This document shows, piece after piece, positions 52,142-61,674 of a stretch of 64,000 bases of DNA. Position 1 is the stretch's first letter; every line of letters starts with the position of its first letter. Made by a program: the position numbers and the translations under genes. This DNA comes from Methylobacter sp. (lineage in GTDB: Bacteria; Pseudomonadota; Gammaproteobacteria; Methylococcales; Methylomonadaceae): assembly GCA_030653175.1 (NCBI GenBank), contig JAURZV010000072.1, positions 1 to 64,000 of the forward strand, read 5' to 3'. The notes beneath the pieces are model-generated. The model ran no database searches. It had not been told where the DNA came from and worked only from the letters and a program-made list of their open reading frames with translations.

Positions 52142-53497
52142 TCATAAGAAAATCCCTTGCTGGACAAGCCAGGGTTTGACGAACAACAGCAACAGCCCCG
52201 CCGCGCCACAAGCACCGATGACAGGAATGACGCCAGTCTTGTAACGGAACAGTGCCAGCAAGGCGCCCACACCGATCAGCGCGGCAATGCCGTCGAAATG
52301 TCCTTCGAAACCTTGCGGCCAGAACACATGCCAGGCAAAAAACACGGCGAGATTAAGAATAACACCGACCACGGCAGCGGTAATCGCCGACAACGGCGCG
52401 GTGAATTTTAAGTTGCCGTGGGTCGATTCCACTAACGGTCCGCCCGCTAAAATAAACAGGAAGCTGGGCAGAAAAGTAAAATAAGTCACTACAACCGCCG
52501 CGACCACACCGGCCATTAATAAGGCCTCGGAGCCGAACGGTAGCTGGCTCCAGCCGCCCAGAAACCCGACGAAGGTAACGATCATGATCAGCGGGCCGGG
52601 CGTGGTTTCGCCCAGCGCCAGGCCGTCGATCATTTGCGTGGCGCTCAGCCAGTGGTAATGTTCCACCGCTCCCTGATACACATAAGGCAATACCGCATAA
52701 GCGCCGCCGAAAGTCAGCAGCGCCGCCTTGGTGAAAAACCAGCCCATTTGCGTCAGCGCACCGTTCCAGCCGTATTGCCAGCACAACAAGCCCATCACGC
52801 CGCCCCATAAAATCAATCCTGCCGCGACGATTTTAAGAAGGTGCGACCAACGGAACAGGGCATGATCGGGAATGGGCATGTCGTCATCAATCAGCGCGGG
52901 ACCGTAGCTTTGTTTGGCCGCGCCATGTCCGCCGCCGACGGCAAATTTGTCAGGGGCGATGCGCCCGCCAATGGATCCCAGACAGGCCGCGATCAACACG
53001 ATCAACGGGAACGGCGCTTGCAATGCGAAGATGGCGAGAAAAGCCAGCGCTGCCAAAGTCCACAGTACGCCGTTTTTTAAAGCGCGCGAACCGATGCGAT
53101 GCGCGGCGAACAGCACGATGGCGGTAACAGCGGGTTTGATGCCGTAAAGCACACCGGCCACCGCCGGAACCTGGCCGAAGCTCAGGTAAATCCAGCTTAG
53201 CAGGATCAGCAGGAACAGCGACGGCAGAATAAACAAAAGCCCGGCGACCACTCCGCCCCAGGTGCGATGCATCAGCCACCCGAGATAAACCGCCAGTTGC
53301 TGCGCTTCAGGCCCCGGCAATAACATGCAGTAATTCAGCGCATGCAGGAAGCGCTTTTCTGAAATCCAGCGCCGCCGCTCGACCAATTCCTGATGCATGA
53401 TAGCGATTTGTCCGGCAGGACCGCCGAAGCTGATAAAGCCGAGTTTGAGCCAGAAATTAAAGGCCGTACCGAAGCTTACGGGTTGCGGTCGTTCCAT
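52142..53497 (-). CDS. chrA: CHR-family chromate transporter (two-domain ChrA)
   Basis: A 451-residue membrane protein of the long-chain chromate ion transporter family. It consists of two homologous halves, each with the GxGGP-type motif: LGFISFGGPAGQIAIMHQEL with YCMLLPGPEAQQLAVYLGWL in the first half, and LLTFGGAYAVLPYVYQGAVE with GLALGETTPGPLIMIVTFVG in the second (each quoted within 20 residues). ChrA proteins export chromate, often as chromate/sulfate antiporters. Its place beside a CysB-like regulator and the sulfate importer fits this, since chromate enters cells through sulfate transporters. Confidence 0.92.
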   Translation of the reverse strand: MERPQPVSFGTAFNFWLKLGFISFGGPAGQIAIMHQELVERRRWISEKRFLHALNYCMLLPGPEAQQLAVYLGWLMHRTWGGVVAGLLFILPSLFLLILLSWIYLSFGQVPAVAGVLYGIKPAVTAIVLFAAHRIGSRALKNGVLWTLAALAFLAIFALQAPFPLIVLIAACLGSIGGRIAPDKFAVGGGHGAAKQSYGPALIDDDMPIPDHALFRWSHLLKIVAAGLILWGGVMGLLCWQYGWNGALTQMGWFFTKAALLTFGGAYAVLPYVYQGAVEHYHWLSATQMIDGLALGETTPGPLIMIVTFVGFLGGWSQLPFGSEALLMAGVVAAVVVTYFTFLPSFLFILAGGPLVESTHGNLKFTAPLSAITAAVVGVILNLAVFFAWHVFWPQGFEGHFDGIAALIGVGALLALFRYKTGVIPVIGACGAAGLLLLFVKPWLVQQGIFL

Positions 53498-53618: not shown

Positions 53619-54518
53619 TTAGTGATGCAGTTCTTTAGCCGCAGCCAGCAGTTCGTCGATAAAATGCTGCGTGTATAAAGGCAGGTAGTTGTTCTTTAAA
53701 TAGGCGATCTTGGTTCTTGAACTGGGAATAAGATGCGATAAATCCCGCGCCACCAGGTCTTGATCCATCGCCGGATCATACGCCATACCGGCGATAATGC
53801 CGACCCCCATCCCCAGGCGGACATAAGTCTTGATCACGTCGGTATCGGCGGCGGCCAGGATAATATCCAGCTCCATGCCGGTGTTTTTAAATGCGGTCTC
53901 GATATTTGAGCGCCCGGTAAAACCGAAACTGTAGGTGAGTATCGGATAAGACGCGAGCCGTTTAAGAGAAATATCGCCCTCGCTCAGCGGATGATTTTTT
54001 GGTACCACCACCGCATGATGCCATTCATAGCAGGGTTTGACGACTAAATCGGTATCTTCGCCGACTTTCTCGGTGCAGATGGCAATATCGGCTTTCCGGG
54101 TATGCAGTTTATTAATCAGTTGTTCGGGCGACGCTTCAATCATATAAATCCTGACGCCGGGATATTTTTCTCTAAAGCGCAGGATAGGTTTCGGTAAAAA
54201 ATACTTGGCCTGGGTGTGCGTGGTCGCAATATGCAGAACGCCCTGATTGCTGTCGATATAGTCGGCGGCTATCGTATGAATATTGTTTTTGGCCAGGTTA
54301 ATGGTTGCGACCTCCTCCATGATGCGCCGCCCCAAGGAAGTCAGGCCTATCAATTTTTTGCCCTGCCGTTCGTATAAAGGTGAACCCAGCTCGGCTTCAA
54401 AAAGCTGCAATTGCCGGCTGACCGCCGATTGCACGATGTGCATTTTTTCCGCCGCTTTTGAAAGGCTGAAATCATTTTCCTGAAGAACGCGAAGCAGTTC
54501 AATTTGGCTTAAGTTCAT
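53619..54518 (-). CDS. CysB/Cbl-like LysR-type regulator
   Basis: A 299-residue LysR-family regulator. The winged helix-turn-helix is at FSLSKAAEKMHIVQSAVSRQ, with LFEAELGSPLYERQGKKL after it. The effector domain starts VLHIATTHTQAKYFLPKPIL. The TTHTQA(R/K)Y motif is specific to the CysB/Cbl subgroup, which senses N-acetylserine, thiosulfate or APS. It is shorter than E. coli CysB (324). It lies between chrA and the sulfate importer genes on the same strand, so it probably controls them. Two matching palindromes upstream of sbp and yezD are candidate targets. Confidence 0.9.
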   Translation of the reverse strand: MNLSQIELLRVLQENDFSLSKAAEKMHIVQSAVSRQLQLFEAELGSPLYERQGKKLIGLTSLGRRIMEEVATINLAKNNIHTIAADYIDSNQGVLHIATTHTQAKYFLPKPILRFREKYPGVRIYMIEASPEQLINKLHTRKADIAICTEKVGEDTDLVVKPCYEWHHAVVVPKNHPLSEGDISLKRLASYPILTYSFGFTGRSNIETAFKNTGMELDIILAAADTDVIKTYVRLGMGVGIIAGMAYDPAMDQDLVARDLSHLIPSSRTKIAYLKNNYLPLYTQHFIDELLAAAKELHH

Positions 54519-54863: not shown

Positions 54864-55907
54864 CTAATGAAACCAATGCGCATGCCGTATCCGCAAATCA
54901 ACCTTGTCGCCTTTATTCAGGTGCAAGCGCTTGAACTGCTTATTAGGCATTTCTGCATAAACGCTTGCAGCCGGACCATTGGAGCCATTCTTGACCAGTT
55001 CAATACGGATCAGGGCACCCAAATGTTGCCAGTCTTTCAAGGTTACAAACGCATCGCTATTGGCTGTCGATTTTTCAATGACAATATCATGCGGCCGAAC
55101 ATGTGCAATCCTGCCTTTTTGCTGCGCAGTTGATAATCCTGCTGTTTGCAGCCAATCGGCATCATGTTCTTCCAGGTCGAAAATATTGGTATGTCCGATA
55201 AAGCGGGACACGAAAGCATTGGCCGGATTATCGTAAATATCGCCGGGTGCGCCTTGCTGTTCGATGCGCCCGTGATTGAGCACCACCACCTGACTGGCGA
55301 CTTCCATGGCTTCTTCCTGGTCATGGGTGACGAAAATACTGGTAACATTCAGGTCGTGATGCAGGTTGCGCAGCCATTGGCGCAAATCCTTGCGCACACT
55401 GGCATCCAGCGCGCCGAACGGTTCGTCCAGCAATAACACCGAGGGCTCCACGGCCAGGGCGCGAGCCAGCGCGATACGCTGGCGTTGACCGCCGGACAGT
55501 TGATCCGGATAGCGGTCATGCAGCCAGTCGAGTTGCACCAGCTCCAGCAAGGCATGGACTTTTTTAGTGACGGCATCGTTGCTAGGCCGTTCGCGGCGAG
55601 GCTTGACTCTCAAGCCGAACGCCACATTCTCAAATACGCTCATATGCCGGAACAAGGCATAATGCTGAAACACAAAGCCAATCTGGCGGTTTTTGACCGG
55701 TTTATCGGTAACCTTGTCGCCTTTTAAGAAGACATCGCCCTGGTCGGCCCGCTCCAGGCCGGCAATGATGCGCAGCAACGTGGTTTTACCGCAGCCCGAA
55801 GGCCCCAATAAGGCGACCAATTCGCCTTCGGGAATATCAAGGCTGATATTGTCCAGTGCGGTAAACGCGCCGAAGTGTTTACTGATATGGTTTACGCTAA
55901 TGCTCAT
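54864..55907 (-). CDS. cysA: Sulfate/thiosulfate ABC importer ATPase
   Basis: A 347-residue CysA. Walker [19 protein letters not shown], signature [20 protein letters not shown], Walker [16 protein letters not shown] and the H-loop ..[12 protein letters not shown] are intact. The C-terminal ~110 residues form the regulatory TOBE-like domain ([11 protein letters not shown]...). It powers uptake of sulfate or thiosulfate with CysT, CysW and the binding protein. It follows cysW by 85 bp; that spacer has GAAAGGCACAAGGCGAAAG-type repeat sequence also seen before pepP. Confidence 0.95.
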
Positions 55908-55992: not shown

Positions 55993-56862
55993 TCACCCCT
56001 TTAACCTTTTATCTTGGTTTTGTTTCCATTCCAGGACGGTCTTAAGCACCAGCGTCACCACGGCCAACGCGGCTAGGGCTGACGCACCGGCGAAGGAACC
56101 GACGAAATCGTATTCGTTGTAACTGACTTCGACATGCAGCGGCAGCGTGTTGGTGAGTCCGCGAATATGACCGGACACCACCGAGACTGCGCCGAACTCT
56201 CCCATCGCTCTGGCGTTGCACAGCAGCACGCCGTTCAACAACCCCCATTTGACATTCGGCATAGTGACTTTAAAAAAGGTTTGCCGGCCGCTCGCGCCCA
56301 GCGATAAGGCCGCTTCCTCCTCTTCATGGCCGATTTCCTGCATCAGCGGAATCAACTCGCGGGCAACGAACGGGAAGGTCACAAACAAGGTCGCCAGAAT
56401 AATCCCCGGCACGGCGAAGATGATTTTGATGTCATGGTCGGAGAACCACGGCCCCAGCCACCCCTGAGCGCCGAAAATCAGCACATAAATCAAACCGGCA
56501 ATCACCGGCGACACCGAAAACGGCAGATCGATCAGGGTAATCAGCAGGCTTTTTCCGCGAAAGTCAAACCGCGCTATCGCCCAGGCTGCGGAAACGCCAA
56601 ACACAGTGGTCAAAGGCACCGTGACCACTGCAACCAACAGGGTCAACCTCATCGCTGCCAGCGCGTCGGGATGCGTCAGGCTGGCACTATAGGCCGCCCA
56701 GCCTTTGGCAAAGGCTTCAATAAGTACGGTCAGCAGCGGCAAAACCAGAAACAATCCGATAATGCCCAGGGTGAGTCCGATCAAGGCATATCGAATCCAG
56801 TCGGGATCCGACAGTGTGAGCTTTTTTGACGCAATAAAAGAGTATGCGGAAACGGCATTCAT
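55993..56862 (-). CDS. cysW: Sulfate/thiosulfate ABC importer permease
   Basis: A 289-residue inner membrane permease with six predicted helices. The EAA loop reads HEEEAALSLGASGRQTFFKV with the downstream MPNVKWGLLNG. VFGVSAAWAIARFDFRGKSL and DLPFSVSPVIAGLIYVLIFG are typical of CysW. It pairs with CysT, which lies 10 bp upstream in the operon. Confidence 0.94.
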   Translation of the reverse strand: MNAVSAYSFIASKKLTLSDPDWIRYALIGLTLGIIGLFLVLPLLTVLIEAFAKGWAAYSASLTHPDALAAMRLTLLVAVVTVPLTTVFGVSAAWAIARFDFRGKSLLITLIDLPFSVSPVIAGLIYVLIFGAQGWLGPWFSDHDIKIIFAVPGIILATLFVTFPFVARELIPLMQEIGHEEEEAALSLGASGRQTFFKVTMPNVKWGLLNGVLLCNARAMGEFGAVSVVSGHIRGLTNTLPLHVEVSYNEYDFVGSFAGASALAALAVVTLVLKTVLEWKQNQDKRLKG

Positions 56863-56872
56863 CAGGTATCCC

Positions 56873-57700
56873 TCACAGTTGTCCTGAACGGCGGCGTACC
56901 CACCATTGCAGCCCGTTAATCAGTAACAGCAGCAGAAACGACAGGATCAGCATGGTCAAGCCAATCGCGGTTGCCCCGGCGTAATCGTATTGTTCCAGTT
57001 TGGTGATAATCAACAACGGCACGATTTCCGAGATATACGGCATATTGCCGGCAATAAAGATCACTGAGCCGTATTCGCCGACGCCGCGCGCAAAAGCCAG
57101 CGCAAAGCCGGTAATGGTGGCGGGCAGGATGTTGGGCAAGATGACTTTGACAAACGCTTGCAAGCGGGTGGCGCCGAGACTGGCGGCGGCTTCTTCCATC
57201 GCGGTATCGAATTCCTGCAACACCGGTTCAATGGTGCGCACCACAAACGGCAAGCCGATAAAGATCAAAGCAAAGACGATGCCCAGCGGCTTGTAGGCAA
57301 TTTGTATTCCGGTGCCGTCCATCACCAGCTTGCCGATCCAGCCGTGGGGCTCGTAGATCGCCGCCAGCACGATACCGGCCACGGCGGTTGGCAAGGCGAA
57401 CGGCAGATCGATCAGCGCATCGAACAGACGCTTGCCGGGGAATGAATAGCGCACCAGCGACCAGGCGATGATAAAGCCGAACACTGCAGCTATCGCTGCG
57501 GCAATCAGCGATGCGCCAAAGCTGAGGCGGAATGAAGCCTGCACCCGCTGATTGGTCAGTATCGCCCAGTACTCGTCGAGGCTAAGCTGGAACGTTTTCA
57601 GCAGCATCGCGCTGAGCGGAATCAGCACGATCAGCGCCAGATAAACCAGGGTAAAACTGATCGCCGGGCGAAACCCCGGCATGATGTTGCTTTGTGACAT
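56873..57700 (-). CDS. cysT: Sulfate/thiosulfate ABC importer permease
   Basis: A 275-residue permease with six predicted helices. The EAA-type loop is AMEEAAASLGATRLQAFVKV with ILPNILPATITGFALAFARG, and DLPFALPTAVAGIVLAAIYE is typical of CysT (CysU). It forms the transmembrane heterodimer with CysW. It starts 155 bp downstream of sbp, the gap being occupied by a palindromic repeat at 57742-57806. Confidence 0.94.
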   Translation of the reverse strand: MSQSNIMPGFRPAISFTLVYLALIVLIPLSAMLLKTFQLSLDEYWAILTNQRVQASFRLSFGASLIAAAIAAVFGFIIAWSLVRYSFPGKRLFDALIDLPFALPTAVAGIVLAAIYEPHGWIGKLVMDGTGIQIAYKPLGIVFALIFIGLPFVVRTIEPVLQEFDTAMEEAAASLGATRLQAFVKVILPNILPATITGFALAFARGVGEYGSVIFIAGNMPYISEIVPLLIITKLEQYDYAGATAIGLTMLILSFLLLLLINGLQWWVRRRSGQL

Positions 57701-57855: not shown

Positions 57856-58860
57856 TTAAGGCGCGTAGACTTGATCGAAAGTGCCGCCGTCATCGAAATG
57901 CTCTTTTTGAGCTTGCGGCCAGCCGCCGAATTTCTCATTGACGGTAAACAGCTCCAGTTTCGGAAAGCGTTTTAAGTCTTCAGGACTGGCATGTTCCGGT
58001 TGGTACGGACGGTAAAAATGTTTCGCCGCCAGCTTTTGCCCGACTGGCGAATACAGGTATTGCAAATAAGCTTCCGCCAAATCCTGAGTGCCGTTCTTTT
58101 TGACGATTTTGTCAAGCACAGCCACCGGCGTTTCCGCCTTGATGCTGACCGGCGGCACGACAATATCGAATTTACCTTCGCCAAGTTCGTTAATCGCCAG
58201 AAACGCTTCATTCTCCCAGGCGAGCAATACATCGCCGATACCGCGCTGGATAAAGGTCGTCGTTGAACCCCGTGCGCCGGAGTCGAGCACCGGCACATTC
58301 TTGTACAACTTTTGCACAAAATCCTTGGCGGCGTCCTTGCTGCCGTAACTCTTTTCCGCAAACGCCCAGGCGGCCAGATAGTTGTAACGCGCGCCACCCG
58401 ATGTTTTCGGATTGGGGGTGATGACGGATACGCCGTCTTTCACCAGATCAGCCCAGTTCTTAATGCCTTTGGGATTGCCTTTGCGGACTAAAAACACGAT
58501 GGTAGAGGTGTAAGGCAAGCTGTTGTTCGGCAAACGGCTTTGCCAATCCTTAGGCAGCAAGCGGGCTTTTTCGGCAATTTGGTCAATGTCATAAGACAAC
58601 GCCAAGGTCACTACATCCGCTTCCAAGCCGTCGATCACCGCTCTTGTCTGTTTGCCGCCCCCGCCGTGCGATTGCTGAACATTGACGTCTTCTCCGGCTT
58701 TATCTTTCCAGTATTTGATGAACTCTTTGTTGAAGTCCTGATAAAGCTCCCGGGTCGGGTCGTAGGACACATTCAGCAGAGTTCTATCTGCCAAGGCCGT
58801 ACCGCTTAGCAGCAGGGTTAGCGTGAAGAACAGGTGTTTTAATGCTTGGGTGAATTTCAT
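57856..58860 (-). CDS. sbp: Periplasmic sulfate-binding protein
   Basis: A 334-residue precursor with a signal peptide ending ..[13 protein letters not shown] (residues 1-24). The mature protein has [50 protein letters not shown] and [17 protein letters not shown], all signatures of the Sbp/CysP family. It delivers sulfate to CysTWA. It is the first gene of sbp-cysT-cysW-cysA. An inverted repeat at 58988-59006 lies about 130 bp upstream of the start. Confidence 0.95.
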
Positions 58861-58987
58861 GATTTCTCCTTAATGGAAGATGTTTTATTGGTGTTGCCGC
58901 ATCGTTTTAATAAGCGCCATAGCCAAACTGCATGGTGCTATGGTAGACAAATTGATTGGCCGGTAAAAACGATATATTTAGATATAA

Positions 58988-59006
58988 TTATCTATTAATT
59001 AGATAT
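58988..59006 (-). promoter_or_regulatory. Inverted-repeat operator candidate upstream of sbp
   Basis: On the minus strand ATATCT-AATTAAT-AGATAA, part of a longer AT-rich palindromic stretch (58971-59007). It closely matches 60937-60955 in front of yezD. The size and T-N11-A character would suit a LysR-type regulator. Confidence 0.5.
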
Positions 59007-59027
59007 ACCCATTGGCCGGGCTTACTT

Positions 59028-60551
59028 TTACTTCGGCTTGCCATCGCCAAACGCATTCAGCGACACTTCAAAGTAGAAGAAGTTGCCTGCCTCGCTGGTG
59101 AAAGGGCCGGTATTGGCTTTCGCCTGCGCCCTGGTAAAACTACCCGGCTCAAAGCGGACATAACTCAAGCTCCAGTCTGCATAGGGGTTAAGTTTATGGC
59201 GTAGACGAATGTCGAACTCGTGTCCCAGGAAGCTGCCGCTTTTACCCGTTGTATCTCTCAGGTTAGCCCTGTTCCAAGCCTCGGTTTCGCTTTCCAGCCA
59301 AAAGGCGTTATAGCCGGTGTCGATGCGGACATCCTTGTACGGGGTAAATTCCAACCGGGCCTTGGGCGCACGCACGTTATCCCAGGAGAAATAATCGTTG
59401 CGCGACCACGGCTGGTTGAAGCCGTAAAAAGCATCGAAGCGTTCGTTTGATCCGCTGGAAGCGTTTCTGTTAGGATCCTTGTCGCCGGTACCGAAGCCGT
59501 AATAAACGCTGGCTCTGGGTTTCCAGTCATGGTCGAAGGTGTAGCCGAGTTCCAGCGAGTAAGCCAGGGCGTCATGCTGAAGATTAAGCTGCTTGGCCAC
59601 GCCTGTTCTGGTGTAACCAAACCGGCCGAACTGTTTGTTGATATCCGCATCGAAATCAAAGCCGCTACTGCCGAACAAACCGTAAACCCGCAAACCAGGC
59701 GCATAAATATCCATATCGTTCTTGCGATTGGCGGCAACCTTATTGTACGGGTCGCCATTTACTTTACGGCCCAGGAAGTAGGGCTGGATCGTAATAAATT
59801 CCGACCAACGGCGCAGGCTCAGCACGCCGCCATAAAACCAGGTATCTTCGTCAGGCCGGTCGAACTTGTATTTCAAGCGTTCCACCGGCTGGAACGCAAA
59901 AGTATCCAAATCCCAGTCGTTTTGCTGTTTACCAAAACGGACACGAAAGCCTTCAAAATTGTTGGTGGTGTTGCGGAACTCGTTATTGCCCACCAGACGC
60001 CGATCCAGCAATTCCAGATGCTGGCGGCCGGCGCGGATGCTTAACGGCCGGTTATGACCGAGCGCATGGTCGAAGTACAACTCAGCGTAGCCCTGAATCA
60101 ATTCAAATTCGTTGATATCAGCATCAGTTCTTTCATACAAGCCGTTGTAACTGCGGGCATCTTCAAATTCCACGGCAAAGCGCAGCGGATCAAGAATATT
60201 TTTTACCCCGATATACCCGCGAGTTCTCAGTAGCCACAGATTGTCAGGATCGTTGCGATAAGTTGATAGCGTAGCACCGGTTGTGGGATCATTTCTGCGC
60301 CGCAAATCGTTTTCGCGGTACTCATAGCGGGTACGAAAATCCAGCCCTACATCCAGCCATTCCACATCGCGGAACTGATCGAACTGGGTTTTGCTCAAAT
60401 TGCGTACATAAGGCGGAGGATCGCTGGCCGGTTCGACGCGATAACCTTTTGTTTTGACATAGTAATCCTCTGCGCTTGCCAAGCCGGGCCGTGCCAGTAA
60501 CAGGCCCAGAGCGCCGGTTGCAGACACTGTATTAATGAAATTACGCTGCAT
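59028..60551 (-). CDS. Outer membrane beta-barrel porin (alginate-export family)
   Basis: A 507-residue precursor with a signal peptide ending near residue 27 (..LARPGLASA-EDYYVK). The rest is a beta-barrel of the Alginate_exp (AlgE-like) family: WLDVGLDFRTRYEYRENDLR, YIGVKNILDPLRFAVEFEDA, SIRAGRQHLELLDRRLVGNN and SYVRFEPGSF near the end. Its position between sbp and the YezD-type gene in a sulfate-uptake cluster, with no alginate genes nearby, suggests it admits sulfate or organosulfur anions rather than exporting alginate; that is an inference. It lies 121 bp downstream of yezD and so probably shares its promoter. Confidence 0.82.
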   Translation of the reverse strand: MQRNFINTVSATGALGLLLARPGLASAEDYYVKTKGYRVEPASDPPPYVRNLSKTQFDQFRDVEWLDVGLDFRTRYEYRENDLRRRNDPTTGATLSTYRNDPDNLWLLRTRGYIGVKNILDPLRFAVEFEDARSYNGLYERTDADINEFELIQGYAELYFDHALGHNRPLSIRAGRQHLELLDRRLVGNNEFRNTTNNFEGFRVRFGKQQNDWDLDTFAFQPVERLKYKFDRPDEDTWFYGGVLSLRRWSEFITIQPYFLGRKVNGDPYNKVAANRKNDMDIYAPGLRVYGLFGSSGFDFDADINKQFGRFGYTRTGVAKQLNLQHDALAYSLELGYTFDHDWKPRASVYYGFGTGDKDPNRNASSGSNERFDAFYGFNQPWSRNDYFSWDNVRAPKARLEFTPYKDVRIDTGYNAFWLESETEAWNRANLRDTTGKSGSFLGHEFDIRLRHKLNPYADWSLSYVRFEPGSFTRAQAKANTGPFTSEAGNFFYFEVSLNAFGDGKPK

Positions 60552-60672
60552 GTGTTCACCTTAAGTTAAAAGTTCTCTGTTAGTTCGAGTAACCTCCGGT
60601 GATCCGGTCGGTTTGTTTTCACGTTGTAGTCATGTTTTCGCCGTTTTTTTACGGTAGAAATGGGTAATTATT

Positions 60673-60843
60673 TTATTTATTATCAAAGCGTAATTTCTCC
60701 TTACGCTCGATTTGTACAACTTTGCCTTCGTGAATAATAATTTCAATCGAACCAAACCTAATATCTTGTAAAATATCGGAAATCTGAGTTGCAATTTCAG
60801 ACAGTCTCGGTTCTCTGTGTGTGTTTTCCAATTTAAGCGCCAT
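60673..60843 (-). CDS. YezD/DUF2292 family mini-protein
   Basis: A 56-residue protein, MALKLENTHREPRLSEIATQ, followed by ISDILQDIRFGSIEIIIHEG and KVVQIERKEKLRF. The IRFGSIEIIIHEGKVVQIER core is the DUF2292/YezD pattern. YezD-type genes are typically found in sulfur-assimilation operons and are induced by sulfur limitation; the function is unknown. AGGAG seven bases before the ATG is a strong ribosome site. An overlapping longer minus-strand frame (60630-60848) is a shadow. Confidence 0.85.
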   Translation of the reverse strand: MALKLENTHREPRLSEIATQISDILQDIRFGSIEIIIHEGKVVQIERKEKLRFDNK

Positions 60844-60936
60844 GACAATGCTCCTGAAGGTAAAAACCTGTCGTTTACGTTGGAGGGAAGTTTAAAGAGG
60901 ATTTAATATTTAATAAAACGACATTATTAGATGCGC

Positions 60937-60955
60937 ATATCTAATTAAGAGATAT
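60937..60955 (+). promoter_or_regulatory. Inverted-repeat operator candidate upstream of yezD and the porin
   Basis: ATATCT-AATTAAG-AGATAT, perfect 6-base arms, about 95-110 bp upstream of the yezD start. It shares 17 of 19 positions with the minus-strand site in front of sbp. The rest of 60844-61179 shows no gene. Confidence 0.55.
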
Positions 60956-61179: not shown

Positions 61180-61674
61180 TCAGATAACATTGGATTCCAG
61201 AAATTCCGCCAATTGTGCGCTGGTAAGTCTGAGTCGCTGGCTCAGAGCTCGGGAAATATTCCAGATAATTTTAAACGCCAGGGTAGGATGCTTGTCAGCC
61301 AGGATCAGCATACTCGATTTGTCTAACGATAAGAAAACCGTTTCCCTTTCTGCGCGGGCAGTCGCTGATCGGGGCTGCGTATCAATAACTGACATTTCGC
61401 CGAAAGTACGTCCGACTCGCAGGGTTGAAATCAGCTTATTATTTTTGTAAATACCAATCGCCCCTTTGACAATAATTCCCATAGAAGAGCCTATCTCGCC
61501 TTCTTTATAAATCACCGTGCCTTTTGGTGCGGCATAAGGTTTAAAATAGTAGCTGATGGCTTGCAATTGCTCCCATGAAAAATCCTCTCCCCAATGTGAA
61601 GCATCTAATATTTGCGCGTTCGATTCTAGCGTACTTTCAATGGTTATTAACTTTGGAACTTTGGATTCAATCAT
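61180..61674 (-). CDS. Stand-alone cyclic-nucleotide-binding domain protein
   Basis: A 164-residue protein consisting of one CAP_ED/cNMP-binding domain. APKGTVIYKEGEIGSSMGII and VKGAIGIYKN lead into the phosphate-binding cassette FGEMSVIDTQPRSATARAER, with the expected Glu and Arg. There is no DNA-binding domain, channel or enzyme domain; the last ~35 residues (LAFKIIWNISRALSQRLRLT) are the C-helices. It may bind cAMP, cGMP or c-di-GMP, or act through protein contacts. It is convergent with nothing and stands alone next to the sulfur block, so co-regulation is possible but unproved. Confidence 0.85.
   Translation of the reverse strand: MIESKVPKLITIESTLESNAQILDASHWGEDFSWEQLQAISYYFKPYAAPKGTVIYKEGEIGSSMGIIVKGAIGIYKNNKLISTLRVGRTFGEMSVIDTQPRSATARAERETVFLSLDKSSMLILADKHPTLAFKIIWNISRALSQRLRLTSAQLAEFLESNVI

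Follow-up and report, generated by a model that had tools for sequence, protein, structure and literature searches.

How does sulfate cross the outer membrane of a methanotroph? It is usually assumed to enter through general porins, and an outer-membrane channel devoted to sulfate has not, as far as we know, been reported. The question is raised by a locus in a 64,000-nucleotide stretch of Methylobacter sp. DNA (contig JAURZV010000072.1, positions 1 to 64,000; hereafter the window), in which a gene for an outer-membrane porin of the alginate-export family lies between an oscA-like gene and the sulfate importer genes sbp-cysT-cysW-cysA, with a cysB-like gene following. We consider it likely that this locus of a Methylobacter-type methanotroph is a CysB-activated unit for the acquisition of sulfate, a tetrahedral oxyanion, equipped with its own outer-membrane channel. 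When reduced sulfur is short, which we infer to be the signal, the CysB-like LysR protein would bind a palindrome about 64 bp upstream of the transcription start together with a second site that lies partly over the -35 box, and would so activate both the oscA-porin and the sbp promoter. The AlgE-fold porin would pass sulfate across the outer membrane to periplasmic Sbp, and Sbp would hand it to the CysTWA pump. The genes of the putative unit are the following.

60673..60843, minus strand: oscA-like gene for a DUF2292 mini-protein of 56 amino acids, previously called YezD (Pfam DUF2292, 2.5e-16).
59028..60551, minus strand: outer-membrane porin of the Alginate_exp family, predicted 18-stranded barrel and proposed sulfate channel (PF13372, 1.9e-82; structural model; match to AlgE).
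57856..58860, minus strand: sbp, periplasmic sulfate-binding protein (NCBIfam TIGR00971, 461.9 bits against a cut-off of 155.5).
56873..57700, minus strand: cysT, permease of the sulfate ATP-binding cassette (ABC) transporter (open reading frame; sbp-cysT-cysW-cysA order conserved in relatives).
55993..56862, minus strand: cysW, sulfate ABC transporter permease (open reading frame; gene order conserved in relatives).
54864..55907, minus strand: cysA, sulfate ABC transporter ATPase (TIGR00968, 378.9 bits, over the cut-off).
53619..54518, minus strand: CysB-like LysR regulator, the putative activator of both promoters (its best NCBIfam match is the CysB family).

The same functions (Sbp, CysT, CysW, CysA, a CysB-like LysR protein, an Alginate_exp porin and DUF2292) had been proposed in a first-pass annotation, and profile matches and the gene order of relatives bear them out. 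Two of the names carry a qualifier. The DUF2292 protein scored 52.8 bits against the NCBIfam OscA model NF033785, below its equivalog cut-off of 85, and is therefore termed OscA-like. The regulator, in which both PF00126 and PF03466 (LysR helix-turn-helix and substrate-binding domains) were matched, had its best match in the NCBIfam CysB family PRK12684 at 319 bits, below the cut-off of 402, and is therefore termed CysB-like.

The first-pass annotation had also placed a palindrome about 100 bp before yezD and another about 130 bp before sbp. The former (60937-60955, ATATCTAATTAAGAGATAT) ends 95 bp before the start of the DUF2292 gene (60843), and the latter (58988-59006, minus strand, ATATCTAATTAATAGATAA) ends 129 bp before the start of sbp (58860). 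Each palindrome forms the front half of a 66-bp promoter module, TATCT-N7-AGATA-N6-TCTAA-N5-TCGTTT-N21-(-10), as both sites run on into TCTAA-N5-TCGTTT and a -10-like hexamer with equal orientation and spacing.

60938..60954, minus strand: palindrome TATCT-N7-AGATA of the oscA-porin promoter, predicted LysR recognition site (top of 1024 palindromes before oscA in relatives).
60916..60931, minus strand: second element TCTAA-N5-TCGTTT of the oscA promoter, activation-type, reaching into the -35 region (fixed register, kept in 29 distinct promoters).
60889..60894, minus strand: -10-like hexamer TAAACT of the oscA promoter (conserved distance).
58989..59005, minus strand: recognition palindrome TATCT-N7-AGATA of the sbp promoter (top of 1024 palindromes before sbp).
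58967..58982, minus strand: second element TCTAA-N5-TCGTTT of the sbp promoter (alignment, perfect match).
58940..58945, minus strand: -10-like hexamer TACCAT of the sbp promoter (conserved distance).

The bare palindrome was rejected as evidence, since its frequency in the genome is at chance level: TATCT-N7-AGATA occurs at 5 places in the 4.0 Mb, roughly as base composition predicts. The 39-bp composite TATCT-N7-AGATA-N6-TCTAA-N5-TCGTTT matches both window sites with zero mismatches and has no other match in the genome with up to three mismatches allowed, the expected number of exact chance matches being about 2e-6. A genome search for the palindrome had been suggested as a check, a high frequency before unrelated genes being named as the refuting result; the bare motif is not rare, but the composite stands at the two window sites only and is not common before unrelated genes. 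The regulon found in this genome thus comprises only the oscA-porin and sbp promoters. The spacer AATTAA was discarded as a conserved element. A common AATTAAK spacer had been claimed for the two sites, but in gene orientation the spacers read AATTAAT (sbp) and CTTAATT (oscA) and are merely A/T-rich, the apparent likeness arising because the sequence was read on the sense strand of one gene and the antisense strand of the other. A palindrome search of the window with 2 mismatches did no better than shuffles, and a relaxed search for TATCT-N-ATTAA-N-AGATA with 3 mismatches gave 126 matches against 142 in the control, chance swamping any signal. Only 22 bp separate the porin stop (59028) from the sbp palindrome and no terminator-like site was found there on the minus strand, so that read-through from oscA-porin into sbp is likely, in addition to transcription from sbp's own promoter.

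The module is conserved in relatives. Porin loci of about 50 of them were fetched, the 350 bp before oscA were scanned and all 1024 possible 5-N7-5 palindromes were ranked. TATCT-N7-AGATA ranked first before oscA (17 of 37 loci, next best 4, mean of 0.02 in shuffled sequences) and again before sbp (14 of 44 loci, next best 3), and it was absent before cysT, cysW and cysA in the loci of these relatives. Ungapped alignment of 29 distinct promoters gave the palindrome, the second site, about 21 bases and a -10-like TAnnAT, all in one orientation and a fixed register. Matches to the composite were present in 110 of 151 genomes of the methanotroph family, amounting to about 317 sites against 16 for a reversed control pattern (totals summed from the per-genome table). 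Downstream of these sites lie oscA, with or without a porin gene, sbp and sbp paralogues, the porin gene, cysK (scoring above the TIGR01139 cut-off) and a Porin_O_P gene; this tally of downstream genes is no unbiased census, as some loci were fetched because oscA was present. Composite sites also adjoin a cysB-like gene in two loci (L263, L264) and stand before cysT in a third (L265). Separately, one relative has the palindrome four times in about 560 bp of DNA upstream of oscA and once more before sbp (L085:6101-6657).

The assignment of the porin to sulfate uptake draws on its neighbourhood. Among the 50 fetched family loci with close porins, sbp was present in 43 and oscA in 36. When equal 1.5-kb flanks were compared, sbp lay beside 25 of 30 close porins but beside none of the distant Alginate_exp homologues (21 loci). 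Methylocystis (Alphaproteobacteria) and Nitrosospira/Nitrosovibrio (Betaproteobacteria) show this linkage too, so that the porin subfamily adjoins sbp/cysTWA in three classes, the gamma-, beta- and alphaproteobacteria. Where Methylobacter relatives lack the porin, and also in L263, the slot between oscA and sbp is filled by a protein of about the same length; by profile the slot protein is Porin_O_P in L255, L256 and L263, and L257 and L258 have an open reading frame of like size in this place. Furthermore, porins of the same clade lie beside modABC molybdate genes (L106, L189, L184) or beside a molybdate-like ABC importer (L186). The porin tree, in which the placement of the L260 porin on a long branch is not trusted, requires at least three separate switches between sulfate and molybdate surroundings. 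One genome has two nearly identical porin copies, preceding sbp and modA. Sulfate and molybdate are alike in shape and charge. Taken together, the synteny, the replacement by Porin_O_P, the moves to modABC and the shared shape of the two anions argue for a channel for tetrahedral oxyanions.

From these comparisons we think it likely that sulfate enters the periplasm through the porin and is taken up there by Sbp-CysTWA. The porin probably also carries other tetrahedral oxyanions; how specific it is for sulfate among small anions is the part of the proposal of which we are least sure. With somewhat less assurance we extend the assignment to the whole AlgE-type subfamily of methanotrophs and ammonia oxidizers in three proteobacterial classes: its members may well be dedicated channels for sulfate and, after repeated gene moves, for molybdate, a sulfate counterpart of OprP/OprO that in the methanotroph family would be switched on as part of a CysB-type regulon having a promoter code of its own. 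The first-pass proposal that sbp and YezD(OscA)-porin are under sulfur-type control and possess their own sulfate channel finds strong comparative support, from promoter footprinting in about 50 loci, synteny in three classes, recruitment to modABC and replacement by Porin_O_P.

Several observations weigh against these conclusions. A few orthologous porins (L086, L093) lie away from any sulfate or molybdate genes, and the inward strand residues of the porin model are charge-balanced (18 Arg/Lys, 20 Asp/Glu), giving no direct sign of anion selectivity. Fewer than half of the examined promoters contain the exact palindrome. In relatives, many composite sites stand before genes for EAL-domain proteins, sigma-54 activators and chemoreceptors, whose sulfur role is unproven. 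The sigma-54 activators, which could run organosulfur use, lend some weight to the best-surviving alternative, namely that under sulfur starvation the porin takes in organic sulfur (sulfonates, sulfate esters), or that it is a general porin for small anions, and in neither case is specific for sulfate; the modelled barrel is also near Occ-type organic-acid porins (OpdK, Z 29.1). We regard this as unlikely, given that the linked importer is the sulfate system sbp-cysTWA in all three proteobacterial classes, that the alternative linkage is to molybdate, another tetrahedral oxyanion, and that a sulfonate importer beside the porin was not seen.

The next point is the identity of the regulator of the presumed sulfate unit. 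In enterobacteria and pseudomonads, CysB is a LysR activator that, at sulfate-transport genes, binds both upstream of the -35 and across it. With the transcription start of the window promoters set 7 bases below the -10, from which it is inferred, the centre of the palindrome falls at about -64 and the second site at about -43, reaching the -35. The 29 promoters show the layout of LysR-activated promoters: a T-N11-A dyad near -65, a second site extending to -35 and a fixed distance to the -10. Judged by this spacing, the module is a standard LysR activator layout, with a predicted recognition site, a predicted activation site over the -35 and then the -10. As had been remarked previously, a CysB-like regulator is encoded beside the cluster; no gene of the genome other than this one (53619..54518) encodes a close CysB homologue, the next LysR protein being 24% identical. 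Outside the family, the composite showed no excess over the control in 367 gammaproteobacterial genomes and only two sites were convincing, both in one family and one of them with 1 mismatch, and both abut cysB-like genes whose products are about 51% identical to the window protein. Because these sites abut cysB-like genes and the window gene is the only close CysB homologue, a CysB-type activator is likely to read the composite site, and the CysB-like protein itself very probably activates both promoters when sulfur is short. It is assigned by position and site type only, which would allow the two promoters to be co-regulated by another protein; the LysR layout, the lack of a second close CysB homologue and the neighbours of the best outside-family sites make this improbable. 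The proposed arrangement has the CysB-type LysR activator in common with enterobacterial and pseudomonad cys promoters. It differs from them in that the site is without excess outside the family and in that the regulator lies below the CysB cut-off.

The porin itself had been described as an alginate-export-family member with no alginate genes around it, and both parts of that description hold. It reached 277.6 bits against PF13372 (gathering score 25.2), the only Pfam family matched, with no match to Porin_O_P (PF07396), and its neighbours are the oscA-like, sbp, cysTWA and cysB-like genes. Searching PDB sequences with the porin profile found nothing. A model predicted from 76 aligned sequences has 18 strands and a mean predicted local distance difference test (pLDDT) score of 86.7, superseding a first model from 13 sequences (pLDDT 67). 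Its nearest solved structure is AlgE (Foldseek E 9.7e-18; Z 32.4, root-mean-square deviation 2.9 over 384 residues), the alginate exporter of P. aeruginosa (PDB 4afk, 3rbh). Family membership and closest fold would thus suit an AlgE-like exporter, for example of a polysaccharide, placed in a sulfate locus by chance or since its product is sulfated. This explanation is very improbable, as polysaccharide genes are absent from the cluster, the distant homologues have no sulfate neighbours (0 of 21), sister species fill the slot with a Porin_O_P channel and the gene has moved repeatedly to modABC loci. AlgE and the predicted window porin have the Pfam family and the 18-stranded fold in common; they are only about 15% identical, the window is without alginate genes, the neighbour of the subfamily is a sulfate/molybdate importer and the proposed direction is uptake. 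Finally, a chance match of the shared palindrome in A/T-rich intergenic DNA can be dismissed, for the bare motif with its 5 genome places is about as frequent as chance allows, but the composite is perfect at both sites, has no further match in the genome and is kept in 110 of the 151 genomes of the family, and the footprinting already refutes it.

Better known systems offer parallels to a starvation-induced sulfate channel. OprP is a starvation-induced outer-membrane channel for a tetrahedral oxyanion, and Porin_O_P is named after phosphate-selective porins. The window porin would work like OprP/OprO (Porin_O_P, PF07396), whose family also fills the slot in sister species; it differs from them in family and in its proposed substrate, here sulfate or molybdate. 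OscA (DUF2292) of Pseudomonas corrugata 28 has been linked with sulfur starvation and with resistance to Cr(VI), and forms one unit with sbp (Viti et al. 2009, via PMC2996968, PMC3596284), and in P. aeruginosa oscA and sbp are among the sulfur genes that respond to silver and tellurite (PMC10433965). The link of an oscA gene to sbp is common to P. corrugata and the window. In the accounts of P. corrugata given there, oscA and sbp are transcribed as a single unit and no porin is mentioned between them, whereas in the window an 18-stranded porin and a second promoter intervene, and the window protein, unlike P. corrugata OscA, is below the OscA equivalog cut-off. No report of an Alginate_exp-family porin tied to sulfate was found in the open-access literature, subscription journals being mostly outside this coverage. 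A sulfate-starvation porin coupled to YezD had been put forward as a new assignment; the porin part is new, but the OscA-sbp linkage and the tie of YezD/OscA to sulfur were known before.

The proposal supplies a concrete gene, a promoter code and cultivable hosts (Methylomonas, Methylobacter, Methylocystis, Nitrosospira) for a sulfate channel, and the 39-bp motif is a ready means to read the sulfur regulon across the methanotroph family. Methylomonas sp. LW13 is among the laboratory methanotrophs with the porin gene. Molybdate, chromate and selenate resemble sulfate in shape, and such a channel would therefore also be a way in for molybdenum and for toxic oxyanions. A ChrA chromate transporter (PF02417) is encoded after the cysB-like gene (window 52142-53497), and near the locus in some relatives too, which fits a link of sulfate uptake with chromate entry.

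Among the genes behind the composite in relatives, one for a degenerate EAL-domain protein of about 290 amino acids is the second most frequent, at 27 of 150 sites (L310:2948-3829, L312, L315, L319, L321, L323 and others), and a relative of this protein (28% identical) is encoded between sbp and cysT in Nitrosospira (L198:10863-11771). Cyclic di-GMP signalling may thus be tied to sulfur supply. The sigma-54 activators behind the composite in several relatives have no receiver domain and resemble SfnR-type organosulfur regulators (L311:556-1743, L332, L338, L259). In Nitrosospira sp. NpAV, two porins and two sbp genes stand in tandem before cysTWA (L198:4389-14547). The porin relatives of Methylocystis are 776-1126 amino acids long and consist of an Alginate_exp barrel followed by a second outer-membrane barrel domain, PF13505, in one reading frame (L178:7728-10283, L194:932-4309 and others). 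Upstream of oscA, the window encodes a small protein with a cyclic-nucleotide-binding domain only (61180-61674), a position kept in close relatives.
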